Positions 2,558 to 42,743 of a stretch of 42,743 nucleotides of DNA are shown here, in pieces (within the stretch, counting starts at the first letter, position 1; the number at the start of each line of letters is the position of its first letter). The position numbers were made by a program, and so were the translations under genes. A model generated the notes under the pieces. It made no database searches, was not told the DNA's origin, and worked only from the letters and a program-made list of their open reading frames with translations. This DNA is from Candidatus Gastranaerophilales bacterium (GTDB taxonomy: Bacteria > Cyanobacteriota > Vampirovibrionia > Gastranaerophilales > Gastranaerophilaceae): NCBI GenBank assembly GCA_017402995.1, contig JAFQOV010000008.1, positions 1 through 42,743 of the forward strand. The letters are read 5' to 3'.

Positions 2558-3808
2558 ATGGAAAATATTATAAATATTGCAAAAAATGCGAAAAATGCTT
2601 ATTTAAAAATGATGAATTTATCATCTAACTTGAAAAATCAAGCATTAATTGAAATTGCAAAAAAATTAGAAGAAAAAAAGCTTGAAATTTTTGAAGCAAA
2701 TAAAAAAGATTTAGAGCTTGCGCAAGGTTTGCTTGAAAAAAATGAAATCAACCAAGCAACTTTTAACCGCTTAAAACTTGACGAAAACAAAATGCGCGAT
2801 ATGATTTCGGGCTTATATGATTTAGTTGAGCTTGAAGATGTTGTTAACAAAACTGTTTGGGAAAAAGAGCTTGATGAAGGTTTGGTTTTGAAAAAAATCA
2901 CAACTCCAATTGGGGTGATTGGCGTGATTTTTGAAGCAAGACCAGATTGTCTTGTGCAAATTTCTTCTTTAATAATCAAATCAGGAAATGCCGTGATTTT
3001 AAAGGGCGGAAGGGAATGTGAAAATACAAATCGCAAAATTTTTGAAGTGATAAATTGCGCTTTAAATGAAGTTCAAAATTTCCCAAAAAATGTTGTAAAT
3101 TTGATATTTTCAAGGGAAGATGTCAAAAATTTATTAGATTTAGATGAATATATCAATTTGATTATTCCTCGCGGTTCAAATGCGCTTGTTAAATTTATCC
3201 AAGAAAATACTAAAATTCCTGTTTTGGGTCATGCAAGTGGAATTTGTCATATTTTTGTTGATGAAAGCGCAGATAAAAATTGTGCTTGTGAAATTATAAA
3301 AGACGCCAAAACGCAATATCCAAGCGCATGTAATGCCGTTGAAACATTGTTAATTCATCAAAACTTTGAATTTAAAAATGAACTAATCGAATATTTGAAA
3401 GCTCAAGAGATTGAAATAATTGAAAATCCGCAAAATTTCGACAAAGAATATGGCGACAAGATTTTAGCGGTTAAAATTGTTGAAAATATTGACTGTGCAA
3501 TTGAACACATCAACAAATTTGGCTCAGGACATACTGATTCAATACTTTCTAATAACCAAGAAAATATTGAAAAATTTATGAATTATGTTGATTCTTCTTC
3601 TGTTTTTGCAAATTGTTCAACAAGATTTTCTGATGGGTTTAGATATGGTTTTGGTGCCGAAGTTGGCATTTCAACAAACAAAACTCACGCGAGAGGCCCT
3701 GTCGGATTAGAAGGTTTAACGATTTATAAATATAAACTTTTTGGCTCAAACAATACGGTTGCGCCATATGCAAAAGGTGAAAAAAAGTTCACCCATAAAT
3801 TTTTATAA
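2558..3808 (+). CDS. proA: Glutamate-5-semialdehyde dehydrogenase (gamma-glutamyl phosphate reductase)
   Basis: NADPH-dependent reduction of gamma-glutamyl phosphate to glutamate-5-semialdehyde, the second step of proline synthesis. The 416-residue length is normal. The aldehyde-dehydrogenase-like fold is evident: the IGVIFEARPD block (about 121-130), KSGNAVILKGG (141-151), the catalytic Cys258 in YPSACNAVET, and the C-terminal THARGPVGLEGLTIYKY signature. It is the third gene of the ald-proB-proA unit. Its last 6 bases overlap the 3' end of the convergent XRE gene, so no separate terminator fits between them. Confidence 0.96.
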   Translation: MENIINIAKNAKNAYLKMMNLSSNLKNQALIEIAKKLEEKKLEIFEANKKDLELAQGLLEKNEINQATFNRLKLDENKMRDMISGLYDLVELEDVVNKTVWEKELDEGLVLKKITTPIGVIGVIFEARPDCLVQISSLIIKSGNAVILKGGRECENTNRKIFEVINCALNEVQNFPKNVVNLIFSREDVKNLLDLDEYINLIIPRGSNALVKFIQENTKIPVLGHASGICHIFVDESADKNCACEIIKDAKTQYPSACNAVETLLIHQNFEFKNELIEYLKAQEIEIIENPQNFDKEYGDKILAVKIVENIDCAIEHINKFGSGHTDSILSNNQENIEKFMNYVDSSSVFANCSTRFSDGFRYGFGAEVGISTNKTHARGPVGLEGLTIYKYKLFGSNNTVAPYAKGEKKFTHKFL

Positions 3809-4129
3809 ATCGATATATTTGCAATATAGATAGATTTTTTCAAGTTTTTCAACTGAAAAATCTTTGATTTCGTCAGCGATTTTGTTTTTTAATTCAGCGC
3901 TTGAAGGCTTCTTGTCGAATAAAAATAATTCATACATTTCAACATTAAAACATTGAGCAAATCTAGAAATTAAATCAAAAGAAGGGAAACTCAACCCGCT
4001 TTCGATACAGCTAATGTGTTTTGGTTCGACAGATACAGCCTCTGCAAGTTGGGCTTGAGTCCAATTTTGTTTTTTTCGCAATTTTTTAATGTTCGTGCGT
4101 AAAATCTTTTTGTTTTCTGCGTCTTTCAT
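3803..4129 (-). CDS. XRE-family helix-turn-helix regulator
   Basis: A 108-residue protein with a Cro/C1-type HTH at about residues 14-68: LRKKQNWTQAQLAEAV (helices 1-2), then VEPKHISCIESGLSFPS (recognition helix and turn), then the FNVEMYELF helix. The remaining about 40 residues are charged and helical (AELKNKIADEIKDF...) and may mediate dimerisation; no ligand-binding domain is seen. An AGGGGAG ribosome-binding site precedes the ATG. The gene is divergent from the Stealth gene, and a 12-bp palindrome lies between them, so control of itself or its neighbour is plausible but not shown. Small stand-alone XRE proteins of this kind are common, and target prediction is not possible from sequence. 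Confidence 0.88.
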   Translation of the reverse strand: MKDAENKKILRTNIKKLRKKQNWTQAQLAEAVSVEPKHISCIESGLSFPSFDLISRFAQCFNVEMYELFLFDKKPSSAELKNKIADEIKDFSVEKLEKIYLYCKYIDL

Positions 4130-4270: not shown

Positions 4271-5227
4271 ATGGAAGATTTTAAAATAGATATGGTTTAT
4301 CTTTGGGTGGATTCAAATGATGAAAAATGGAAAGAAAAGAAAAACAAGTTTTTAAATAATTCAAAAAATTATGACGCAGAAGCAGTTTGCGACGGGCGAT
4401 TTGAACAAATTGATGAATTAAAATATTCCTTGCGTTCATTAGAAAAATATGCAAATTGGATTAATCATATTTATATCATCACAGATGAACAAGCGCCAAA
4501 ATGGCTCAATTTAAATAATGATAGAATTACAATAGTTGACCATAAAGACATTTTTGATAATTCAAAATTACCAACCTTTAACTCTATGGCGATTGAAACC
4601 CAAATTGCAAATATAAAAGGCTTATCTGAATATTTTTTATATGCAAATGACGATTTTTTCTTTTACAAAAAAACAGGCAAAAAATTTTTCTTTAATAAAA
4701 AGAAAATGCCGATATGTCGCTTCATTAGCAAATTTAAAAATCAAAGGTTTGTTGGACAATATGGGCTAAATGTTAAATATACACACGATTTAATGAGCCA
4801 AAAATTTAATAAATATGTTCCATATTTTACTCATCATTGTATTGATTCATATACAAAAACAAATATTTTATCTTGCATTGCAGATTTTAGAGATGAGTAT
4901 GAAAGAACTTCTAAAATGCGCTTTCGCGAGTTTAACGCTCTTGAAAGAACAGGATATTCATATTGGGCTGTAATGAGCGGAAAAGGTGTTTTTAAAAAAA
5001 TTCCAAAAAGATGTACGTTTGATTATTTGCTTGGAGTAATTGGAATAACAAGATTTGATTCAATGGTTTTTGCAAATACTAAAAAAGGAATAGATAAAAA
5101 ATTAAAAATTTTTAAACCTCATATTTTTTGCATTAATGATGGTGAGCAATGTCAAAAAGAAGATAGAGCCCGCGCAAAAAGCATTTTAGAAAAAATATAT
5201 CCAAAAAAATCATCATTTGAAATATAG
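4271..5227 (+). CDS. Stealth-family sugar-phosphate transferase
   Basis: The 318-residue product carries the conserved regions of Stealth proteins (capsular-polysaccharide phosphotransferases related to GlcNAc-1-phosphotransferase). CR1 is IDMVYLWVDSND at 6-17. CR2 spans about 48-131 with ELKYSLRSLEKYANW, IYIITDEQAPKWL and the acidic NDDFFF. Less conserved CR3/CR4 regions follow, with a HHC near 180 and a Cys near the C-terminus. Members transfer hexose-1-phosphate between sugars in surface glycans. No signal peptide or membrane span is seen, so it probably acts at the cytosolic face. It stands alone rather than in a capsule locus, so its acceptor is unknown. Start chosen by the GAGGT site 6-7 bases upstream. 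Confidence 0.85.
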   Translation: MEDFKIDMVYLWVDSNDEKWKEKKNKFLNNSKNYDAEAVCDGRFEQIDELKYSLRSLEKYANWINHIYIITDEQAPKWLNLNNDRITIVDHKDIFDNSKLPTFNSMAIETQIANIKGLSEYFLYANDDFFFYKKTGKKFFFNKKKMPICRFISKFKNQRFVGQYGLNVKYTHDLMSQKFNKYVPYFTHHCIDSYTKTNILSCIADFRDEYERTSKMRFREFNALERTGYSYWAVMSGKGVFKKIPKRCTFDYLLGVIGITRFDSMVFANTKKGIDKKLKIFKPHIFCINDGEQCQKEDRARAKSILEKIYPKKSSFEI

Positions 5228-12764: not shown

Positions 12765-12803
12765 GTAGCCTTTTACATGGAACTATCCAAAAAAGGAAAA
12801 ACC

Positions 12804-13610
12804 ATGAAAAAGTCGAAAAACCGCGCGTTTACGCTTGCGGAAGTAATGATTGTTTTAACAGTTATCGGTATTTTATCTGCAATTTTGTTGCCCACAGCAT
12901 GGCATTCGACACCTGATAAAAATCTTTTGAAGTTTAAAAGGGGCTATAATAACCTTGCTATGGTAATTCGCGAGATTTCATCTAATGGTGAATATTATCT
13001 TCCTGGGGACATGACTAAAAAACCCGATGGGACAGGGTTTTCAAAAAAAAATGAAGATGATATGTCCTGGGCATGTAACGCTATGGCATCTGTTTTGAGC
13101 TATAAGAAACATGATTGTTTCTATAAAGACCATGGGGCTTTTCAAATTAAAACAGATTTAGAAGGTTATGACGGATATATGTCTGTTGGCAATACTGCCA
13201 GAGAGAGCTATGGTGTTGAAATAATGAAACAATTTTTAGATGCTTCTTGTGTTGATATGTATAGCGAGGGCAATCCTGCTGGTTATCATATTGAAGAAAA
13301 TATTGTTTATGTTTTAGGTACAGATGGTATTTATTACGTTGATTTAGCGATTTCAACATATTTTGATGAATATGATTACAAACCATTTTGCATAGATATA
13401 GATGGCGAGGGCGGAGTTAAACCTTTTGGTTTTGGTGTTCGTGCAGATGGGAAAATTATGACAGGTGCAAGGGCGGATAGATGGCTTGAAAGAGAATTAA
13501 ACCAAGAAAAATACGCTTGTTGTCCAAAGGCACACAAACAAGCATATAGATGGAGCTCTGGTGCAACAAGAAATATTTGCGATAAAGATGAAGAAGTTTG
13601 TGCTGAATAG
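12804..13610 (+). CDS. Type IV prepilin-like protein
   Basis: The 268-residue product has a prepilin leader: MKKSKNRA, then FTLAEVMIVLTVIGILSAIL, with cleavage expected between A8 and F9 and Glu at +5 of the mature protein. A prepilin peptidase would process and N-methylate it; the hydrophobic helix then packs into a pilus or pseudopilus. The remaining about 235 residues are a Gly/Asp/Tyr-rich globular domain with about eight Cys (e.g. CCPKAH, CDKDEEVCAE at the end), suggesting disulfides. I do not recognise that domain. I start at 12804, where AAGGA precedes the ATG, rather than at 12777, because the basic leader then has normal length. No pilus assembly genes are nearby. Confidence 0.85.
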   Translation: MKKSKNRAFTLAEVMIVLTVIGILSAILLPTAWHSTPDKNLLKFKRGYNNLAMVIREISSNGEYYLPGDMTKKPDGTGFSKKNEDDMSWACNAMASVLSYKKHDCFYKDHGAFQIKTDLEGYDGYMSVGNTARESYGVEIMKQFLDASCVDMYSEGNPAGYHIEENIVYVLGTDGIYYVDLAISTYFDEYDYKPFCIDIDGEGGVKPFGFGVRADGKIMTGARADRWLERELNQEKYACCPKAHKQAYRWSSGATRNICDKDEEVCAE

Positions 13611-41331: not shown

Positions 41332-41356
41332 TAAAAAAAACAGGGGCAAAGCCCCT
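41332..41356 (-). terminator. Intrinsic terminator for the secreted-protein gene
   Basis: Read on the minus strand, AGGGGC/GCCCCT arms with a 3-nt loop are followed by eight or more T (plus-strand A run 41332-41340). It lies 27 bp after the stop of the gene that ends at 41383. Confidence 0.88.
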
Positions 41357-41382
41357 ACTAAAACAAAAATAATATGAAATTT

Positions 41383-41964
41383 TTATGATGTTGCTTTGAT
41401 GATGAAATTAACTGACCCCGTCGCACCCCCGCCACCGCCGCCAGTACTTGTGTTTACAGTGCAATATGTGTGGACAAAGTGAGTTACAAATTGATTTTCT
41501 TTGAGCGTATACATGTATGCATTACCACTATCATAGTATGTTGGCTGTAAGCTTATTAACCCAGGGTAATAGTCGGAACTACTATATCTGTCTTTTATAG
41601 TTCTTATTTGTTCAATTGTACCATATGTTGAAGTATCACTAGAGCTATTATAGGCATCTTTTCTTAATGAATAATTGTCCCAATAGCTACCATCATTAAA
41701 TAAATAAATTTGGCTAACTACGTCTGATATACCTGCAAAAGCGTTGTTTGTTGAATATTTTAAGTGTGAAGTAAATACTGCAACAAGCGCTCGTGTATGT
41801 AGCTTTACGACTGTTCCACCAGCGTTTGTTATTGCTGTTCTAAGAGCTGATGTTGTAGGTTCTGTTTTTTCTATCGTATATTCTTCCCAACAGTCCACCC
41901 CAACGGCATATGCCCCTAGTTTTAAACAAAATAAGCTTAATAATAATATTAAAAATTTTTTCAT
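41383..41964 (-). CDS. Secreted protein of unknown function, partner of the prepilin-collar gene
   Basis: The 193-residue product has a clear signal peptide (MKKFLILLLSLFCLKLGAYA, cleavage near 20). The mature part is rich in Ser, Thr, Tyr and Asn, with two or three Cys (DCWEEY at its start, TYCTVN near 170), and ends in a run of six Gly followed by ATGSVNFIIKATS. I recognise no domain. Its start lies 1 nt after the stop of the prepilin-collar gene, so the two are co-translated; I use 41964 rather than 42018 because the signal peptide begins there. It may be a surface or pilus-associated component. Confidence 0.72.
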   Translation of the reverse strand: MKKFLILLLSLFCLKLGAYAVGVDCWEEYTIEKTEPTTSALRTAITNAGGTVVKLHTRALVAVFTSHLKYSTNNAFAGISDVVSQIYLFNDGSYWDNYSLRKDAYNSSSDTSTYGTIEQIRTIKDRYSSSDYYPGLISLQPTYYDSGNAYMYTLKENQFVTHFVHTYCTVNTSTGGGGGGATGSVNFIIKATS

Positions 41965-41965
41965 C

Positions 41966-42322
41966 TTAATCCCTAACCCTTCCGTTTGTGTTTTCTGTTG
42001 CTGTCGCACCTTTGACAATTAACCCTCTCATATCAGGAGTTTTGGTATCATCTAAAAATGTCCTAAGTTCGTCATATTTTGTATCTGCTGGTATCGTTGC
42101 CCCGTTACAAAGTAACCACCCCTCAGGTGCGCTATCTTCAAGCCACATCACAACTGTGCCAACAGGAACTGAACCAGAAACAACAGAAGATTTAACTTCA
42201 ATGTTTTTAGTCATCTTCTTTGTAATTACAGGTACAAATGCAGAAAGTAAAATCGAAACCACGACAAGCGTAATTAGCATCTCAACAAGTGAGAATGCTC
42301 TCAAAAAACTATTTTTTATCAT
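41966..42322 (-). CDS. Prepilin N-terminus fused to a phage tail-collar domain
   Basis: The 118-residue product joins two known modules. Residues 1-35 are a prepilin leader and helix (MIKNSFLRA | FSLVEMLITLVVVSILLSAF, Glu at +5). Residues about 51-105 match the phage tail-fibre collar pattern: SVPVGTVVMWLEDSAPEGWLL, then CNGATIP, YDELRTFL, and TPDMRGLIVKGA. The product then stops after a short polar tail, without the usual receptor-binding extension. Processing by prepilin peptidase would display a collar fold on a pilus. It is the first gene of a two-gene unit next to the terminal repeat block. Confidence 0.82.
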   Translation of the reverse strand: MIKNSFLRAFSLVEMLITLVVVSILLSAFVPVITKKMTKNIEVKSSVVSGSVPVGTVVMWLEDSAPEGWLLCNGATIPADTKYDELRTFLDDTKTPDMRGLIVKGATATENTNGRVRD

Positions 42323-42382
42323 ATTATCCTTTGTGTTTTGGTAGTATTATTTTATGTTTGAAATGATTATATCGTTTTTTTT

Positions 42383-42416
42383 TTTTTTGACAAGGGGGTT
42401 TTCGAAAAATTGCAAA
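42383..42416. repeat. 34-bp direct repeat, copy 1
   Basis: Identical over 34 bases to 42514-42547; starts in a T run, then GACAAGGGGGTTTTCG, and ends in an AATTGCAAA stretch. The copies start 131 bp apart. Confidence 0.92.
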
Positions 42417-42465
42417 ATTATTTCATTTTGGCTCCTGAGGGACTTCGTCCCACGTCGCCGTCGTA

Positions 42466-42504
42466 GTGCTATCGTCAAATCTCAACGATTTGCCGATTTA
42501 GCAC
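42466..42504. repeat. Imperfect hairpin between the 34-bp repeats
   Basis: GTGCTA/TAGCAC, TCG/CGA and CAAATC/GATTTG pair around a 5-nt loop, with small bulges. This is far more structured than other intergenic DNA in the window. The GC content is higher than in the surrounding genes. Confidence 0.75.
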
Positions 42505-42513
42505 CGGCTCCGC

Positions 42514-42547
42514 TTTTTTGACAAGGGGGTTTTCGAAAAATTGCAAA
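42514..42547. repeat. 34-bp direct repeat, copy 2
   Basis: Second identical copy of the 34-base unit at 42383-42416. Confidence 0.92.
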
Positions 42548-42638
42548 GATTTTATTTGTAAAGAGCTTCACCCTTGTTTATTTTTTCAAGTCCTTTGGAC
42601 TTCTTCGTTTTTCTTTTTATCTATAAAGGGCTTTCGCC

Positions 42639-42743
42639 CTTGTTCATTTTCTTTTTCTTTCGTCAAGCGCCGATGAAAGAAAAAGAAAACAGAACCAAAA
42701 GAAAAAGAAATATCGGCTTGGTTATATTATTACATTCTAGAGA
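42639..42743. repeat. Right arm of 105-bp inverted repeat
   Basis: Reverse complement of 37-141 with no mismatch, running to the last base of the window. Contains the same 15-bp-stem hairpin as the left arm. Confidence 0.93.

Follow-up and report, generated by a model that had tools for sequence, protein, structure and literature searches.

The Prepilin–Collar Gene and Its Secreted Partner

The window (the whole stretch of 42,743 nucleotides) is contig C5 of a 1.7-Mb Candidatus Gastranaerophilales genome assembled in 26 contigs (G000). Near one of its ends, the minus strand carries two adjacent ORFs, one for a 118-residue prepilin-collar protein (41966..42322; copy C5w of 14) and one for a 193-residue partner (41383..41964). 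The 118-residue protein has the N-terminal features of a type IV prepilin: a methylation motif that includes Glu5, and a hydrophobic helix. Residues 1–9 form the leader, with a putative cleavage site, while the start of the mature protein and the helix occupy residues 10–41 (42200..42295, minus strand), as seen in the alignment and by the N_methyl profile PF07963 (E 1.2e-4, 22 bits against a curated cut-off of 21.2). Residues 55–101 (42020..42160, minus strand) match the Collar profile PF07484 with an E of 9.6e-9 (35.5 bits against a curated cut-off of 24), as well as PHROG tail-fibre families (best 7e-11) and, by phmmer, the T4 gp12 and gp37 chains (E 4.5e-6 to 3.2e-5). These matches confirm the earlier note on this DNA, which had placed a prepilin leader and helix directly ahead of a bacteriophage collar domain. 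The domain is the N-terminal part of the collar; the final collar strand is missing.

The ATG of the partner lies 1 nt past the pilin stop, as the earlier note had read and the ORF coordinates verify. All features of the partner are likewise on the minus strand. Its first 20 residues (41905..41964) are hydrophobic and, by eye in the alignment, resemble a signal peptide, in agreement with the earlier claim that the protein is secreted. The middle, at about residues 40–160 (41485..41847), is hypervariable in the alignment, with a median pairwise DNA identity of 36%. It is followed by a run of six glycines (41425..41442, alignment) and by a conserved C-terminal strand, SVNFIIKATS (41386..41415), which, on sequence and models, is proposed to be the missing last strand of the collar. 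The earlier note was mistaken in letting the protein end in the glycines: after the Gly run comes ATGSVNFIIKATS, and the true C-terminal end is GGGGGGATGSVNFIIKATS. This segment is the informative part of the partner end. A GC-rich hairpin and a T run, terminator-like by eye, lie 3′ of the gene (41333..41365).

The partner in the window has no match in Pfam or PHROG, and a scan of four partners returned no T4-type gp38 profile and no Pfam family at E<=1 or 0.5. The aligned partners start with Met-Lys followed by hydrophobic residues, and they further share CW(E/T)E, a late Cys after Tyr or Phe, and the Gly run. Most of them carry VN(Y/F)IIKA at the C-terminus, and their middles can barely be aligned. 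By module, the median pairwise DNA identity of the cassettes is 88% in the helix, 63% in the tail, 57% in the signal peptide, 49% in the collar, and 36% in the middle. Two sources of the partner variation have been considered and set aside. Because dN/dS over whole partners stays under 1 (0.27–0.52) in each of six pairs calculated, there is no overall positive selection; the variability is thus no proof of diversifying selection, which is unsupported for whole partners. A diversity-generating retroelement is set aside because the partner lengths differ widely.

Copy Number, Pairing, and Distribution

A search of G000 with the prepilin-collar query yields 23 matches, of which 14 span the collar and nine cover the prepilin helix only. 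All 14 prepilins start intact, each with its own upstream region. Twelve have a complete partner 0–18 nt downstream; the other two reach contig ends after the first partner codons. Contigs C11 and C17, in turn, start inside partners having the same start, and their partner bodies are likely the other halves of the two contig-end cassettes. The genome therefore likely holds 14 pairs. The complete copies retain their open reading frames. In-frame gaps between pilin and partner occur in G000 (0 and 18 nt) and in G015 (30 and 69 nt), a different species of the same genus; as a trace of an ancestral single ORF, however, this spacing was not used, since gaps of 1, 10, and 17 nt are out of frame.

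The recurrence of the gene pair, raised in the earlier note as a way of checking it, is borne out: a partner or its first codons follow 14 of 14 prepilin-collars in G000 and both of those in G015. Fourteen paralogues with conserved pairing are more than chance; the copy number, like the switch-like promoter and the apparent split of the collar, goes beyond the earlier note. At E<=1e-8, the prepilin-collar search matches eight of 97 genomes (G000 and others, with 27 congeners), and full pairs are found in G000 and G015 only. The partner profile matches the same two genomes out of 383 in the family. A weak partner match was seen in G063 (E 8.7e-5). A wide contig search with the prepilin-collar alignment returned just two prepilin-helix matches. 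The literature search found nothing that joins a phage tail collar or tail collar domain with a prepilin or type IV pilin; prepilin, tail fiber, and collar do co-occur in a Pseudomonas mobile-element paper, and Gastranaerophilales and pilin in three papers. It likewise found no link of Melainabacteria with antigenic variation or with promoter phase variation. The cassettes are a real, dispersed, multi-copy paired surface system, for which adhesion, pilus display, and switching are the presumed functions.

A Collar Apparently Split between Two Chains

In phage T4, the gp37 collar comprises residues 811–881 plus 1010–1026, with the receptor-binding part inserted between them (PMC6957217). In the alignment, ISLNYIIK lies no more than four residues from the C-terminus of the T4 gp12 chain. 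The same kind of ending is found in single-chain relatives of the prepilin-collar, the prepilin-minicollars of genera g65 and g66 and of G027. They resemble the pilin of the cassette in joining a prepilin helix to a collar, are mostly 115–123 residues long, and end in ..IIK; G038 has a longer single-chain prepilin collar of the same family. Unlike the cassette, they consist of one chain, and the partner profile finds no partner outside G000 and G015. Their C-termini read ..WIIKxKK, ..NYIIKY, or alike (e.g., NLKWIIKVKK) in 14 of 14 read among 20 loci. The 14 ends are 12 parsed by pattern among L102–L120 (19 loci) plus L068 and L069; the unparsed loci are L104, L109, L111, L114, L115, and L119, while L120 is read via its copy L069. 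In contrast, the final strand is absent by motif in all 16 split pilins of G000 and G015. It appears instead on the partners: (I/L)IKA ends each of the 12 complete partners of G000, and both G015 partners end in IIKA plus one residue.

Structure predictions point the same way. The model of a single-chain form (119 residues, mean pLDDT 66.8, pTM 0.37) resembles phage fibre collars, which, with the profile matches to the 118-residue protein, upholds the collar fold that the earlier note had read. By first and last aligned residues, its residues 52–119 align to T4 gp12 336–527 (Z 5.2, rmsd 4.1 Å, 68 aligned), 52–118 to gp37 811–1026 (Z 5.2, rmsd 4.5 Å, 65 aligned), and 52–117 to a cyanophage fibre (Z 5.4, rmsd 3.9 Å, 65 aligned). 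The alignments extend to the chain ends of all three, and seven of the eight matches shown are fibre or baseplate entries. For the split form, pilin and partner of copy C10 were modelled as a fusion (mean pLDDT 57.7, pTM 0.39), of which residues 46–332 align to phage fibres with weak Z values of 2.2–2.5: 8kec (Z 2.5, 65 aligned, rmsd 5.3 Å), 9nxk (Z 2.2, 55 aligned, rmsd 4.7 Å), and 2xgf (Z 2.2, 62 aligned, rmsd 5.7 Å). These ranges, again given by first and last aligned residues, start in the collar and stop at the last residues of the partner. Foldseek found nothing significant for the fused model, its best match (E 0.51) being a phage fibre. The top VIA matches of the fused model, latent TGF-beta among them, reach Z 3.7; they were rejected as unrelated proteins that align with the partner middle and are taken for a common arrangement.

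The rival that survives best is a phase-variable pilin and adhesin pair in which the partner is attached otherwise or acts alone, as a secreted lectin, decoy, or competition effector, its VNYIIKA end being an ordinary strand of its own fold. The partner does have a conserved core in the fused model, formed by the CWEE and YC strands (pLDDT about 88); the strand match is short, the C-terminal strand being too short alone for a significant sequence match, and the Z values of the fused model are low. However, this strand ends every single-chain prepilin-collar read and is missing from every split pilin, and the fused-model ranges run to the C-termini of three phage fibres. An independently acting partner is accordingly judged unlikely, though with appreciable weight. 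The reading in which the partner supplies the last collar strand, and its variable part sits where phages carry the receptor-binding domain, has moderate support; completion of the fold by this strand is suggested by models of modest quality.

Promoters and Regulators

Upstream of the pilin gene, the promoter alignment identifies, on the minus strand, a −35 box TTGTCA (42388..42393), a tract of 14 A (42375..42388), and a −10 box TATAAT (42366..42371), with a spacer of 16 between the two boxes. Ten of the 14 copies in G000 share this anatomy: TTGTCA or TTGCAA, an uninterrupted A tract that fills the spacer, and then CGATATAAT. The tracts measure 10, 13, 13, 14, 14, 15, 15, 17, 18, and 21 A in one assembly; these are differences between copies. 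The −35/−10 spacers are 16 in four copies (including C5w), 15 in two, and 11, 19, 20, and 22 in the others. G000 contains ten exact instances of the pattern A8-CGATATAATC, each upstream of a cassette, against none for a reversed-pattern control; one mismatch adds a single place, on contig C6, away from any cassette. A9-NNN-TATAAT is found ten times in G000 versus five times in 27 other genomes of the genus combined.

The four copies of G000 with no poly-A tract all have a divergent gene for a Cro/C1-type HTH_3 regulator, as do both G015 pairs (L066 1550–1918 and L067 2052–2270), at which regulators are present and the tract is absent. This suggests that the poly-A form is derived. A divergent HTH_3 gene was found at none of the ten poly-A copies, where contig ends cut the upstream region at 204–421 nt in six. 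A Cro/C1-type HTH gene like those at the four cassettes also lies elsewhere in the window (3803..4129, minus strand), divergent from a 318-residue ORF (4271..5227); no cassette is present there.

In Mycoplasma hyorhinis, ON and OFF states of vlp genes go with insertions and deletions in a promoter-region adenine tract (PMC10502178). By analogy, the poly-A promoter of the cassettes is likely a phase-variation switch. Another reading takes the tracts for A-rich spacers that drift in length, the copies being constitutive or decayed duplicates and no switches. The genome is indeed AT-rich, and a shorter promoter tract of 5–6 A in Neisseria nspA altered expression with no switching seen (PMC6389960). 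However, runs of 10–21 A sit exactly between the hexamers at ten loci and nowhere else in G000, such tracts are rare in 27 congeners, the complete copies keep their reading frames, and the layout is the same as that of vlp (PMC10502178). Drifting spacers are thus improbable, slightly more so than a partner that acts apart from the collar.

Mosaicism, Repeats, and a Probable Insertion Site

The copies are mosaics. C5w and C24 are 100% identical in the 45 nt ahead of the ATG and 52% in the collar; C7e and C22 are 100% identical in these upstream 45 nt, 48% in the collar, and 85% downstream. Conversely, C18 and C21b share 98% of the collar and 44% upstream. The partners on C11 and C17 are identical over the first 120 aligned nt, 97% identical over the next 60, and 38% thereafter, and both contigs begin at this shared identical stretch.

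Upstream of the cassette, a repeat block reaches the contig end (42395..42743, no strand assigned). A genome search gives 60 matches to it at E<=1e-5, many of them at contig ends, so the block next to the cassette that the earlier note described is real and dispersed, and the assembly probably breaks at it. Both ends of the window contig (37..141 and 42395..42743) bear the same repeat. The mobility and variability suspected earlier find support in the mosaic copies and in a site that is filled in G000 and empty in relatives. In G000, uvrB and kdsD are separated by 1.5 kb that include a cassette. Among 24 loci of relatives, uvrB lies inside the 1.5-kb flank in 16. In 15 of these, at most about 40 nt separate its end from kdsD; in the other, L131, the gap is about 660 nt. 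Because the site is mostly empty in relatives, the cassette was most likely gained there.

That the copies are prophage or mobile-element remnants carrying tail-fibre genes, with an incidental prepilin fusion, is very improbable in spite of the phage-type collar, the flanking dispersed repeats, and the filled versus empty site, since the uvrB–kdsD insert shows just the pair among its larger ORFs, prepilin-collar fusions are spread across genera g65 and g66, and no phage gene cluster was seen by eye among the flanking ORFs read.

Pilus Machinery and Other Prepilins

A prepilin peptidase and a PilB-type assembly ATPase, which the earlier note had tied to its pilus reading, are both encoded in G000. 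The peptidase profile PF01478 has one match (E 9.4e-10), and PF00437 has five matches over the cut-off, the best of which (E 1.2e-125) is a PilB-type ATPase.

Other prepilins are found in the same genome. A second family, whose members share the N-terminus AFTLAEVMIVLTVIG.. and have similar Cys-rich C-termini, has several copies, one in the window (12777..13610, plus strand) and others at L038, L040, and L039 (2334–3281). Three long prepilins of about 540–834 residues (L034 2552–4246, L035 3731–6235, and L036) combine a related helix with Gly-rich stretches; one of them has a match to the lectin-like Lcl_C below the cut-off. The poly-A promoter of the cassette kind is absent at all three. In the congeners G013, G016, G018, G020, and G023, prepilin N-termini lie at contig ends, which suggests that repeated prepilin families break assemblies across the genus.

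Proposed Mechanism

On balance, the locus is probably one of a 14-copy family of phase-variable, recombining split-fibre adhesins of a pilus or pseudopilus. What is observed is the number of copies, their pairing, the anatomy of the promoters, the mosaicism, the site empty in relatives, and the missing strand; from these we infer pilus display, adhesion, and switching. The one prepilin peptidase of the genome would process the prepilin, and the type IV pilus machinery would assemble it, so that it displays the N-terminal part of the collar domain. The signal peptide would export the partner, whose C-terminal strand, VN(Y/F)IIKA, may complete the collar in trans and tether the partner to the pilin, with the variable middle presented at the position of the receptor-binding insertion of phage fibres. 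Slippage in the poly-A tract would alter the −35/−10 spacing and thereby turn single copies on or off, while the four other copies may answer to the adjoining Cro/C1-type regulator. Recombination between dispersed copies is proposed to shuffle promoters, collars, and partners.

A bolder form of this proposal, advanced tentatively and at somewhat less than even chances, is that a phage fibre tip has been made into a pilus tip. The collar would be cut in two such that the pilin serves as a socket to which a hypervariable secreted head donates the last strand, and at least ten heads, each independently switched by its poly-A tract, would give combinatorial tips. If this is right, phage receptor-binding architecture has been domesticated on a pilus, and one fold has been divided over a pilin and its secreted partner, much as in strand complementation. 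It would also mean antigen-like phase variation in an apparently uncultured commensal lineage (a guess from gene content).

Comparison with Known Systems

The Neisseria pilE/pilS system consists of one expression locus plus truncated silent copies. The mosaicism of the cassettes similarly suggests recombination among pilin-like copies. In G000, however, all 14 copies come with a start of their own and with their own promoter or regulator, and no arrangement of one expressed locus plus truncated silent copies was seen.

The Vlp proteins of M. hyorhinis also form a multigene surface family in which each gene has its own adenine-homopolymer promoter (PMC10502178). The proteins themselves are unrelated to those described here, and Vlp switching is documented, whereas switching of the cassettes is a proposal from sequence.

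The T-even phages of the S16/T2 type carry at the tip of gp37 the adhesin gp38, which has polyglycine and variable segments and is encoded beside the fibre gene. The partner resembles gp38 in all of these respects: it would be an adhesin, it has a glycine run and a variable part, and its gene adjoins that of a collar protein. Unlike gp38, the four partners scanned have no Pfam match, and the partners bear a collar-type last strand.

Phage collars are trimers. The closest likeness is to the tips of T4 gp12 and gp37, which match the collar by profile and phmmer and in which the C-terminal part completes the collar, with the receptor part inserted between. In contrast to these single chains, the collar here is carried on a prepilin helix, while the insert and the putative last strand reside on a separate secreted protein.
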